From NCBI GenBank assembly GCA_902605445.1, contig CACLCL010000009.1, forward strand, positions 1-36,298: a DNA stretch of 36,298 bases, given 5' to 3'. Numbering within the stretch: position 1 is the stretch's first letter; every line of letters starts with the position of its first letter. Below, in pieces: positions 27,716 to 36,298 of the stretch. The position numbers and the translations under genes were made by a program. Source of the DNA: an uncultured Bacteroidota bacterium (GTDB taxonomy: Bacteria; Bacteroidota; Bacteroidia; Flavobacteriales; Flavobacteriaceae). A model generated the notes under the pieces. It did not search any database, had not been told where the DNA came from, and saw nothing but the letters and a program-made list of their open reading frames with translations.

Positions 27716-28492
27716 TTATTTTTTTTCCTTTTTATCCTTATCGGAAGGAGCTTCTTCAGCAGGAGCTTCTTCCGCAGGAGCTTCTTCAGCAGGAGCTTCT
27801 TCAGCAGGAGCTTCTTCCGCAGGAGCTTCTTCCGCAGGAGCTTCTTCAACTGGAGCTTCTTCAACTGGAGCTTCTTCCGCTGGAGCCTCTTCAGCTGGAG
27901 CTTCTTCAGCTGGAGCTTCTTCCGCAGGAGCTTCTTCAACTGGAGACTCTTCAGCAGGAGCTTCTTCCGCAGGAGCTTCTTCAACTGGAGACTCTTTTGA
28001 AGGGACTTCATCCTTCGTAGATTCTACAATATCATTTTTAGCCTTATCATTATCTTTGTTATCCGTTAGTTTTTCTTTTTTGTTACCTCTTCTACTTCTT
28101 CGGGTTGTTTTCTTTTTTGTAGATACATATAATTCATTGTAATCAACAAGTTCAATCATTGCCATTTCAGCATTGTCACCTAGTCTATTTCCAAGTCGAA
28201 TTATTCTTGTGTAACCACCCGGCCTATCACCAACTTTCACAGCAATATTTCTGAAAAGTTCTGAGATAGCATTTTTTTGTTTGATTCTTGAAAAAACGAT
28301 TCTCCTGTTGTGAGTAGTATCAGATTTTGATTTTGTAATTAAAGGCTCAATAAATCTTTTTAAAGCTTTTGCCTTGGCAAGTGTTGTATTAATTCTCTTA
28401 TGTATTATGAGCGATGATGACATATTAGCCAACATTGACATTCTGTGTCCTTTTTTTCTGCCTAAGTGATTAAACTTCTTTCTATGTCTCAT
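27716..28492 (-). CDS. rplQ: Ribosomal protein L17 with long acidic repeat tail
   Basis: L17 is a large-subunit protein near the peptide exit. The core (about 1-125) is standard: [20 protein letters not shown] at the start, [20 protein letters not shown], and [21 protein letters not shown] basic linker (about 128-145) follows. Then comes a tail of 16 five-residue units of the form PAEEA or PVEEA (about residues 169-248) and a Lys-rich end. Total length is 258, against about 120-130 for typical L17. Tails of Ala, Pro and Glu are known on L17 of Bacteroidota, but they are usually shorter as I recall. It follows rpoA with a 27-base gap at the end of the ribosomal block. Confidence 0.97.
27749..27988. 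repeat. 15-bp tandem repeat, 16 units, encoding the L17 tail
   Basis: Sixteen in-frame 15-base units encode PAEEA with PVEEA and PAEES variants. Differences are mostly synonymous or Ala/Val changes (gcttcttcagcagga versus gcttcttccgcagga on the plus strand). The period and in-frame purity suggest growth by slippage or unequal exchange. Confidence 0.95.
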
Positions 28493-28519: not shown

Positions 28520-29512
28520 TTATTCTCTTTCAAGTTTATATTTTGATAAATCCATTCCAAAACTTAAACCTTTAAGTAATACCAACTCCTCAAGTTCAGT
28601 TAATGATTTTTTTCCAAAATTTCTAAACTTCATTAGGTCATTCTTATTAAATGAAACTAAATCACCTAAGGTTTCAACTTCAGCCGCCTTTAAACAATTT
28701 AATGCCCTTACAGAAAGATCCATATCAGTAAGTTTGGTTTTTAATAATTGACGCATGTGTAGTGACTCTTCGTCATAGGTTTCAGTTTTGGCTATTTCAT
28801 CAGCTTCAAGAGTAATTCTTTCGTCTGAAAATAACATAAAGTGGTGAATTAAAATCCTTGCAGCATCTGTAAGTGCGTCCTGTGGTGAAATGGAACCGTC
28901 TGTAATAATATCAAAGACTAGCTTTTCATAATCAGTCTTTTGTTCAACTCTAAAATCTTCAACATGGTATTTTACATTTTTAATTGGTGTAAAAATAGAG
29001 TCCATAAAAATTGTTCCCAATTGCGCAGTCTGATTTTTATTTTCTTCAGAAGTTACATAACCTCGTCCCTTTTCTATTGTTAACTCAATTTGCAACTTAA
29101 CTTTTGAGTCAAGATTGCATATAATTTGGTCGGAATTAAGAATCTGAAATCCTGAAATAAATTTTTGAAAATCACCAGCCACAATTTTATCTTGACCTGA
29201 AATTGAAATAGAAACCAATTCATTGTCAACTTCCTCTATTTGTCTTTTAAATCTGATCTGTTTTAAATTCAGAATAATTTCTGTTACATCCTCAAGAATT
29301 CCCGGGATTGTTGAAAATTCATGTTCAACCCCCTCTATCTTGACCGATGTTATTGCAAATCCTTCTAGAGAAGATAATAAAACTCTTCTTAATGCATTTC
29401 CTACTGTCAAACCATATCCTGGTTCTAAAGGTCTAAACTCAAATCGTCCCTCAAAGTCTGAGGAATCAATCATTATAACTTTATCTGGTTTTTGAAAATT
29501 TAATATTGCCAT
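28520..29512 (-). CDS. rpoA: RNA polymerase alpha subunit
   Basis: This subunit nucleates RNA polymerase assembly, and its C-terminal domain contacts upstream DNA and activators. The 330-residue protein has the N-terminal dimerisation domain with [20 protein letters not shown] and [15 protein letters not shown] linker follows, then the alpha-CTD (about 258-325) with [20 protein letters not shown] and [14 protein letters not shown], the helix-hairpin-helix signature. Length is normal. It starts 7 bases after the rpsD stop and precedes rplQ, the standard alpha-operon order, so it is expected to be cotranscribed with the ribosomal genes. Confidence 0.98.
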
Positions 29513-29519
29513 ATCTTTA

Positions 29520-30125
29520 TTATTTTGAATATAATTCTACTATATATTGTTCGTTAATATTTTCTGGAATCTGTAATCTTTCAGGAATTGAAACAAAAGT
29601 TCCTTCCATCTTATCAGTATTCCAAACTATCCATTCATATACGTTTTGTGCACTTTTTAGTGCGTTATTAATTGAATCTAATGATTTTGATTTCTCTCTT
29701 ACAGCAACAACATCACCAGCCTTAAGATTGTATGATGGAATATTTACTATTTTGCCATTTACTAAAATGTGTCTATGTGAAACAAGCTGCCTAGCTCCTC
29801 TTCTAGAATTTGATAAAGACATTCTAAAAACGACATTATCCAATCTAGATTCACAAAGCTGAAGTAAAACTTCACCGGTTATTCCCTTTGAGGCAGTTGC
29901 CTTTTTAAAAAGATTTCTAAATTGTCTTTCTAAAATACCGTATGTGTACTTAGCTTTTTGCTTTTCCATAAGCTGAATTGCATATTCAGATTTTTTTGAT
30001 CTTCGTTTGTTATTTCCGTGTTGCCCAGGTGGATAGTTTCTTTTTTCAAAAGATTTATCTTCACCAAAAATTGGTTCACCAAATTTTCTTGCAATTTTGG
30101 ATTTTGGACCAGTATATCTTGCCAT
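29520..30125 (-). CDS. rpsD: Ribosomal protein S4
   Basis: S4 is a primary 16S-binding protein that starts assembly of the 30S body. It is also a known translational autoregulator in Enterobacteria and Firmicutes. The 201-residue protein has the N-terminal segment [27 protein letters not shown], the helical RNA-binding region, and an S4 domain with [25 protein letters not shown] and [11 protein letters not shown]. The N-terminal zinc cysteines of some S4 proteins are absent (zinc-free form). A structured 77-base gap precedes it, the only large gap in the ribosomal block, which suggests it has its own translational control. Confidence 0.97.
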
Positions 30126-30138
30126 ATTTTAAATTTTT

Positions 30139-30189
30139 TGAGGATAATTGTGAATTAAGGTCTTTCCTTCGACAACTTATTAATCCTCA
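30139..30189 (-). promoter_or_regulatory. Candidate structured mRNA leader upstream of rpsD (possible S4 autoregulatory site)
   Basis: In the minus-strand transcript three nested helices can form. The outer is 7 bp, UGAGGAU with AUCCUCA (30189-30183 with 30145-30139). The middle is 6 bp, AGUUGU with ACAAUU including one G-U (30177-30172 with 30151-30146). The inner is 4 bp, AAGG with CCUU (30169-30166 with 30160-30157), closing a 5-base loop. The right strands of the outer and middle helices are adjacent, with a 5-base bulge on the left. No U tract follows, so this is not a terminator. The outer helix ends 13 bases before the rpsD ATG. An 11-codon frame, MRINKLSKERP (30190-30155), lies inside it. 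Confidence 0.5.
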
Positions 30190-30202
30190 TGTTATACTAT
30201 AT

Positions 30203-30586
30203 TTAAACTCTTCTCCTTTTTGGAGGTCTACAACCATTGTGAGGAGTAGGTGTAACGTCAACAATTTCAGTTACTTCAATACCTCCATTGTGAATTGATC
30301 TAATAGCAGATTCTCTGCCATTTCCAGGACCTTTCACAAATACCTTAACTTTTTTCAAACCCGCATCCTTAGCAATAGTAATCGCATCTTCAGCAGCCAT
30401 TTGAGCAGCATAAGGTGTATTTTTTTTTGTTCCCCTAAATCCCATTTTTCCTGCAGATGACCATGAAATTACATCTCCATTTTTATTGGTTAAGGAAATA
30501 ATTATATTATTAAATGAAGCAACAATATGTGCTTCACCGTGTGATTCTACTAATACTTTTCTTTTTTTACTGCCTGATTTAGCCAT
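30203..30586 (-). CDS. rpsK: Ribosomal protein S11
   Basis: S11 lies on the 30S platform near the mRNA exit and contacts S7 and the Shine-Dalgarno helix region. The 127-residue protein has [20 protein letters not shown] near the start, [20 protein letters not shown] and the invariant C-terminal [18 protein letters not shown]. Length and all signature regions are normal. It is 9 bases from the rpsM stop, in the usual alpha-operon position, and is followed by the 77-base structured gap before rpsD. Confidence 0.98.
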
Positions 30587-35462: not shown

Positions 35463-36298
35463 TTAATTTTTTTCATTTTTTTCGTCATCATTATTATCTG
35501 ACAATTTATTTTCATCAGAATCTGCTGTATCTTCTGCTGCAGGTGATTCCTCAGCGGCAGGTGCTTCCTCAGCTACAGGTGCTTCCTCAGCTACAGGTGC
35601 TTCCTCAGCTACAGGTGCTTCCTCAGCTGCAGGTACTTCCTCTGCTGCAGGTACTTCCTCTGCTGCAGGTGCTTCCTCTGCTGCAGGTGCTTCCTCTGCT
35701 GCAGGTGCTTCCTCTGCTGCAGGTACTTCCTCTGCTGTAGGTGCTTCCTCTACTACAGGTACTTCTTGTTTGTTTTCTGATTTTTCTTTTTTCTTAAATG
35801 GTAAGCCAAGCTCACTTAATAAGTGTAGGGCTTCACTGTCAGAGGCAGCACTGGTTACAAAAGTTATGTCCATTCCAGAAATTTTGTTGATTTTATCAAT
35901 ATTAATTTCTGGAAAAATAATTTGTTCAGTTATGCCTAAATTATAGTTTCCCCTTCCATCAAATCCTGAGCTTTTTACTCCATTAAAGTCTCTTACTCGA
36001 GGTAGTGCAGTTGTTACAAACCTATCAAGAAACTCATACATTCTTTCCCCGCGTAATGTAACCTTGGCTCCTATAGGCATACCCTTTCTTAGTTTAAATG
36101 ATGCCACATCCTTTTTAGAAATTGTTGCAATTGCCTTTTGTCCAGAAATTTCAGTGATTTCATTTATTGCATGTTCAACAAGTTTTTTGTCATTAACCGC
36201 AGCTCCAACGCCTTTTGATATGACTATTTTCAATAGCTTGGGAACCTGCATAACATTATCATAGCTGAAATGATCAATTAATTTTGAGATAACAACTT
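35463..36298 (-). CDS. rplE: Ribosomal protein L5 with long acidic repeat tail (5' end beyond window)
   Basis: L5 anchors 5S rRNA in the central protuberance and contacts P-site tRNA. The visible frame starts at the right edge with [15 protein letters not shown] before [19 protein letters not shown], which matches the interior of the L5 N-terminus. The true start is therefore outside the window and the Met at 36251 is internal. The core continues through [25 protein letters not shown] and [12 protein letters not shown] to [12 protein letters not shown], where L5 normally ends. About 108 further residues follow: a short basic linker, 13 six-residue units of the PAAEEA type, and a hydrophilic D/N/E/K end. 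The core looks functional; the tail is far beyond the usual length of about 180 residues. Confidence 0.96.
35526..35759. repeat. 18-bp tandem repeat, 13 units, encoding the L5 tail
   Basis: Thirteen in-frame 18-base units encode PAAEEA with [30 protein letters not shown] and PAAEDT variants. Neighbouring units are near identical at DNA level: three PVAEEA units in a row (plus-strand ggtgcttcctcagctaca), with PAAEEA or PAAEEV units to either side. This indicates growth by unit duplication. Confidence 0.95.

Follow-up and report, generated by a model that had tools for sequence, protein, structure and literature searches.

The closest described relative of the element analyzed here is the S4-Flavobacteria ribosomal protein leader (Rfam family RF03141), which was published in 2020 by Eckert and Weinberg (PMC7247131). 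In Table 1 of that paper the leader is given as regulating rpsD, rpoA, and rplQ, with S4 as the most likely ligand, and the motif is rated there as a likely candidate on the basis of covariation. The paper terms its leaders candidates; S4 was assigned since other leaders have S4 as ligand, and its authors caution that ligand assignments of such a kind may be wrong. A second hairpin, the S4-Bacteroidia leader (RF03139), is entered in the same table for the same genes in a related lineage. The account of these motifs in PMC7247131 reports no meaningful similarity between RF03139 and RF03141 except that both are hairpins, none between the flavobacterial motif and earlier published S4 leaders, and no mimicry of rRNA. 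For the gammaproteobacterial (alpha-operon) and Firmicutes rpsD leaders, S4 is described there as the experimentally confirmed target, whereas for the leader considered here S4 is the predicted ligand.

The window, that is, the whole stretch of 36,298 nucleotides that was analyzed, comes from an uncultured member of the Flavobacteriaceae and carries a run of ribosomal protein genes on its minus strand. In this run rpsK (uS11, 30203..30586) is followed by rpsD (uS4, 29520..30125), the first gene under the proposed control, and then by rpoA (28520..29512) and rplQ (bL17, 27716..28492); rpsD was identified as an open reading frame (ORF) and by a homolog search, and the other three are ORFs named by sequence and gene order. 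Subtraction of ORF coordinates (rpsK end 30203, rpsD start 30125) confirmed that the rpsK-rpsD gap is 77 nt, against 2 to 27 nt for the remaining intergenic gaps from rplE to rplQ. With the curated cutoffs, RF03141 was the sole Rfam match in the whole 36-kb window, located directly 5' of rpsD at 30146..30177 on the minus strand (41.0 bits, cutoff 35.2; E value of 5.5e-5 for the whole window). The alignment spanned model positions 1 to 33, and no nonstandard pair was marked. A permissive Rfam search of 30050 to 30280 (up to an E value of 5) returned five other families, all far under their own cutoffs, and neither the gammaproteobacterial nor the Firmicutes S4 leader was among the six matches listed for this interval. 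RF03139 matched 0 of 39 genomes, the own genome included, while a Bacteroides ihuae control did match.

The element shares with RF03141 the core sequence, the middle and inner helices, and the position before rpsD-rpoA-rplQ, and it is the known, catalogued S4 leader. The initial annotation had proposed an S4-type leader of rpsD, and perhaps of rpoA and rplQ, in Bacteroidota and knew of no described example. The score above the RF03141 cutoff and the entry in Table 1 of PMC7247131 support the proposal itself; since the family had already been published in 2020, the biological guess was right and the claim of novelty was wrong. We consider it highly probable that this is a cis-acting S4 leader lying inside the large ribosomal operon, S4 binding being predicted. 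The additions made here beyond the Rfam model, namely, an outer helix and a wider range among related bacteria, may both already be published.

The whole leader (30139..30189, minus strand) consists of outer, middle, and inner helices, and reading of the minus-strand sequence confirmed the 17 pairs in three nested helices that had been annotated. It was matched at 30138 to 30190 with 57.9 bits by our own model, R1, a score that includes the window sequence among the 43 training rows of R1. The outer helix pairs UGAGGAU (30183..30189) with AUCCUCA (30139..30145) in 7 bp, 30189-30183 against 30145-30139; it lies outside the 33-position RF03141 model, which ends at the middle helix. The middle helix, seen in the sequence and in the Rfam alignment, pairs AGUUGU (30172..30177) with ACAAUU (30146..30151) in 6 bp, 30177-30172 against 30151-30146, with one G-U. 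In the inner helix AAGG pairs with CCUU in 4 bp (30169-30166 with 30160-30157). An extra pair, G30170-C30152, was absent from the initial annotation and is present in the Rfam structure; it lengthens the middle helix toward the inner helix past the bulged C30171. The core, CGAAGG-loop-CCUUAAUUC (30152..30171, minus strand), was delimited by conservation counts and comprises the bulged C, the inner helix, a 5-nt loop, and a 3' bulge; it is presumed to be the S4 contact region. The apical loop is AAAGA in the window and AUUGA in 11 same-genus leaders. The minimum free energy of 30113 to 30202 was -13.2 kcal/mol (z score of -1.74), and 15 of 200 shuffled sequences were at least as stable. On its own, then, the fold of the window is unexceptional and of modest stability, and it is because of the RF03141 match and the covariation in relatives that the hairpin is taken to be more than chance.

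For the comparison with relatives, 209 loci were assembled, of which L187 and L223 were left out, rpsK being off the locus. The remaining 207 gaps comprised 37 leaderless ones of 1 to 42 nt and 170 with a leader, the latter reduced by collapsing of identical sequences to 160 distinct leaders in gaps of 62 to 251 nt. The ratio of 170 to 207 is not a prevalence because the loci were selected: L119 to L159 were picked by their RF03141 match, L160 to L239 were the best 80 rpsD relatives listed, and some genomes were repeated. A stable hairpin between two genes might also be a transcription attenuator or terminator. Runs of at least four consecutive U residues within 8 nt past the outer helix were found in only 11 of the 160 leaders and not in the window, which upholds the earlier statement that no U tract follows and that the hairpin is not an intrinsic terminator; termination as its role appears highly improbable.

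Of the 160 distinct leaders, 149 had an outer helix of 5 bp or more and 154 had one of 4 bp or more, and 75 different combinations of arms were represented. The outer helix was found to be shorter than 4 bp in 6 leaders, a count in which at least one row (L222) had its core misplaced and was scored as a failure. When the 3' arms were exchanged between genomes, helices of at least 5 bp were formed in a mean of 36.6% and a maximum of 43.9% over 100 permutations. Pairing was then examined in alignment A1, which holds 43 of the 160 leaders, picked for diversity, and uses one fixed register for the outer helix. Changes on both sides were observed in 6/6 outer pairs and 7/7 middle pairs, the latter in agreement with the covariation support by which RF03141 is characterized. 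The observed value exceeded all 500 shuffles on all five measures, and every slid version scored lower. The inner helix is uninformative on covariation because three of its four pairs are constant and the fourth shows no change on both sides.

Model R1, built from A1, matched each of the 40 other-family loci searched with E values of 3.6e-4 or better and gave no match up to an E value of 10 on 19 control loci. Alignment A2, the 40 distinct rows of the other-family set, had the window as its sole training row and was fitted to R1, so that it is biased toward the model; it exhibited changes on both sides in 6/6 outer and 6/7 middle pairs. Four measures lay above all 500 shuffles, and the number of pairs changed on both sides (12) was equaled in 7 of 500. 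Across A2, 92.2% of cells were paired, compared with 27 to 61% in slid versions; for the outer helix in its one register, the paired share was 70.0% in A1 and 79.8% in A2. RNAalifold on A1 drew 11 pairs, all in the middle and inner helices, and missed the outer helix, a result that speaks against this helix provided that the automatic prediction is relied on. We read this miss as a shift of the outer-helix register between groups within A1, and in our view the arm-exchange control and the second family set outweigh it. The alignments thus indicate that the outer helix, outside the Rfam model, covaries. The initial annotation had named a lack of compensatory changes, or of the stem, in close relatives as evidence against a leader; both-side changes were found in the outer and middle helices of A1 and A2, and this check did not refute the proposal.

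The core is nearly invariant. Its 5' side was CGAAGG in 138 of the 160 leaders, and its 3' side was CCUUAAUUC in 120 and CCUGAAUUC in 27, counts to be read with the fact that the search pattern itself fixes parts of the core. The conservation is not due to dropped rows because no gap of at least 55 nt failed the pattern. One locus from another family, L293, departs from the core pattern yet matches RF03141. The pair adjoining the bulged C was G-C in 147 and A-U in 9 of the 160 leaders, and column 47 (A1 numbering) held U in 133 and G in 27. RNAalifold paired A25, the first A of AAGG, with U51, just before C52, whereas the Rfam model uses column 47. In A1, columns 25 and 51 gave 42 A-U pairs and one G-U, compared with 34 A-U and 9 unpaired for columns 25 and 47, which suggests that A25 may pair with U51 rather than with the U47 of the Rfam drawing. 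The conservation of A/G25 and U51 throughout the 160 leaders is uninformative on this point because the search pattern requires both. In two leaders, L058 (genome G047) and L239, the apical loop has grown to 39 and 37 nt, respectively, with an extra small inverted repeat inside (GGCAGGAUGUAUUCUGCC in L058), an enlargement that looks like an insertion within the leader.

Within a 100-genome sample, RF03141 was found in 46 genomes (own included) at an E value of 0.001 or lower, 45 of them over the cutoff and each with one match; in searches of more than 40 genomes, such as this one and those of the order, phylum, f20, f20-order, and class samples below, stricter filters applied and weak matches were lost. 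A search of these 100 genomes found rpsD in 89. In the own genus, rpsD was present in 12 of 21 genomes (own included), and RF03141 in 12 of those 12; neither was found in the remaining 9, which are incomplete assemblies. In the own family, rpsD was found in 51 of 61 genomes, of which 45 matched RF03141 at an E value of 0.001 and 44 over the cutoff. Five more (G024, G029, G032, G047, and G059) carried a divergent leader that was found by pattern, and one 1.6-Mb assembly, G055 (loci L310 and L093), had no leader and an rpsK-rpsD gap of 16 nt. For the rest of the order in this sample, rpsD was found in 38 of 39 genomes and the upstream gap was readable in 37; 36 of these gaps were short, and one, in G062, contained a leader. 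The rpsD gene of G083 is truncated by a contig end. A larger sample of the order gave RF03141 matches in 74 of 395 genomes, with no match in G299, G378, and G410 of the own family. A second match in G234 (31.3 bits) was under the cutoff, with no rpsD on its 2-kb locus, and was dismissed as chance.

Beyond the order, 41 of 395 genomes in a sample of the phylum matched RF03141, one of them from outside the order. In the family of that genome, f20, the match was present in 74 of 100 genomes. In the order of f20, 97 of 249 genomes matched, all from families f20 and f71, and a sample of the class (19 of 295) added families f84 and f109. Loci were fetched from f3, f20, f71, f84, and f109. The next gene was rpsD in 41 of 41, the gap was 54 to 98 nt in the 40 with rpsK on the locus, and the core pattern fitted 40 of the 41. 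A local RF03141 scan of 20 loci matched 16 of 18 from these other families and 0 of 2 leaderless ones. The leader is not confined to the order of the window but also stands before rpsD in families that belong to at least one further order of the class. These loci also bear on the identity of the ligand. Since the published ligand was assigned by analogy, in a paper that itself warns of error in such assignments (PMC7247131), and since rpoA and rplQ come after rpsD in the window, the leader might respond to a different protein encoded in the operon (S11, S13, L17, or RpoA) instead of S4. The constant placement immediately before rpsD in all 41 other-family loci argues against this, and we regard a ligand other than S4 as unlikely.

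In a tree of concatenated RpsK and RpsD from 58 loci, the own family contributed 11 rows with a leader, of which 10 formed one group (98/66), and the 28 rows of f20, f71, f84, and f109 formed another (98/89). Given these separate groups, there is no sign in the protein sequences of a transfer of rpsD out of the family of the window. Leader presence requires four changes on this tree, in which many forks are weak, and a single origin with loss or independent gain may each account for its history, both being compatible with the tree. On balance we favor, with some reserve, a functional RNA that is larger and older than RF03141: a three-helix S4 leader, its outer helix set against an A-rich initiation region, found upstream of rpsD in six or more families of the class, with at least one further order represented, either behind a promoter of its own or inside the large operon. 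If this is true, RF03141 is a truncated model that was named too narrowly, and there is a case for a longer one.

The position of the hairpin relative to the start codon is also conserved. The 3' end of the outer helix, 13 nt from the rpsD AUG in the window as had been annotated, was 11 to 23 nt from the AUG in 160/160 leaders and 13 to 17 nt in 141. A gap varying freely in length and sequence had been named in the initial annotation as evidence against a leader. Its length does vary (62 to 251 nt among the 160 leaders), but this variation falls before the hairpin, and the hairpin itself keeps an almost constant spacing to the AUG. The spacer between helix and AUG was on average 64% A, with A at -11 in 82%, at -12 in 82%, and at -3 in 72% of the 160 leaders. 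Bacteroidetes mRNAs are described as being without Shine-Dalgarno sequences, and in Flavobacterium johnsoniae, according to the same account, A residues at -3 and -12/-13 increase initiation, mRNA structure modulates it, and structure around the start codon accompanies lower initiation (PMC6847099). In the same species the initiation region of rpsD is likewise described as lacking a Shine-Dalgarno sequence, and an rpsD'-gfp reporter has been employed (PMC9976891). The A-rich spacer is in line with these F. johnsoniae determinants as reported.

We suggest that the leader probably limits S4 production in flavobacteria, repression proceeding by the predicted S4-RNA binding. S4 in surplus over free 16S rRNA would bind the near-invariant core (CGAAGG...CCUUAAUUC) and stabilize the hairpin. 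With its outer helix stopping 13 nt short of the rpsD AUG, the hairpin adjoins the A-rich -12/-13 positions, which in Bacteroidetes favor initiation independent of Shine-Dalgarno sequences. Initiation would thereby be blocked and ribosome loading on rpsD reduced, and expression of rpoA and rplQ may go down too through translational coupling. The outer helix, the near-fixed distance to the AUG, and the wider spread provide a sharper construct for testing translational repression by S4, of relevance to bacteria that hardly use Shine-Dalgarno sequences.

In the phylum Bacteroidetes, the TAnnTTTG box is a promoter element. No such box was found in the window, either within the gap or in the 400 nt upstream of the rpsK stop codon; the leader is therefore probably internal to a long transcript and would act on translation. 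Among the 160 leaders, 64 begin at least 60 nt past the rpsK stop, and in 51 of these a TAnnTTTG box precedes the leader (8% in shuffles), with 48 of 53 boxes starting 34 to 45 nt before the outer helix. The other 96, the window included, lie less than 60 nt past the stop; a box was found in the gap of 0/96 and, with the final 300 nt of rpsK included, in 1/96. Of the 64 long gaps, 20 contained a perfect inverted repeat with T's after it, as did 2 of the 96 short gaps. In L043, L046, and other long gaps, the stretch between rpsK and the leader contains an inverted repeat with its T's and, after them, a TAAATTTGC-type box; rpsD-rpoA-rplQ thus seems to be transcribed independently at these loci, in contrast to the window. 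These two settings bear on a further explanation, that the hairpin is a processing or stability element, e.g., an RNase III-type site at which the mRNA of rpsD-rpoA-rplQ would be cut off from the preceding transcript. The leader of the window, within one gene run and with no TAnnTTTG box near, would suit such a role. However, 51 of the 64 leaders in long gaps are kept behind a promoter-like box, which makes a cut unnecessary, and the near-invariant core and nearly constant AUG distance point to protein binding and initiation; we consider processing quite unlikely and retain translational control by S4 as the preferred reading.

Mimicry of rRNA was considered as well. Visual inspection suggested a similarity between the leaders with long loops (UAAGAUUAAGACC) and UAAGAAUAAGGACC, a piece of the 16S sequence immediately ahead of helix 18, which we take to be the S4 site. 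Eight pairs of leader and 16S rRNA, each from the same genome, were compared with 500 dinucleotide shuffles each; the pairs come from other genomes, 16S rRNA not having been found in the own genome. The P values were 0.09 to 0.81 for the whole 16S stretch and 0.03 to 0.76 for the S4 region, where two of the eight reached 0.05 or less without correction, each at a different place. The resemblance was left as no evidence of mimicry because it is not significant for eight tests and the loop is unconserved.

The leader region of the window also contains the 11-codon frame MRINKLSKERP (30155..30190 on the minus strand, stop included), to which the initial annotation had drawn attention. That the frame is indeed present would suit regulation of rpsD by an upstream peptide through its own translation. 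In 10/10 distinct same-genus leaders, however, the AUG of the frame is missing and stops lie in frame, and closed frames of at least 5 codons starting with AUG were found on the 5' side in 16 of 160 leaders, compared with 49.5 expected from mononucleotide shuffling. The frame stands as an observation, and a role for it is not supported; absent in the closest relatives, it is judged from these comparisons to be a chance frame, and a regulatory peptide is scarcely credible. The roughly threefold rarity of 5'-side AUG frames relative to shuffled sequences fits the underrepresentation of AUG near Bacteroidetes start codons described in PMC6847099.

Two ribosomal proteins encoded in the same operon, bL17 (rplQ, a 258-amino-acid frame) and uL5 (rplE, a 262-amino-acid frame), carry long acidic repeats of the PAEEA type at their C termini (about 27716 to 28012 and 35463 to 35702, minus strand). 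Their low-complexity tails are of the same kind.
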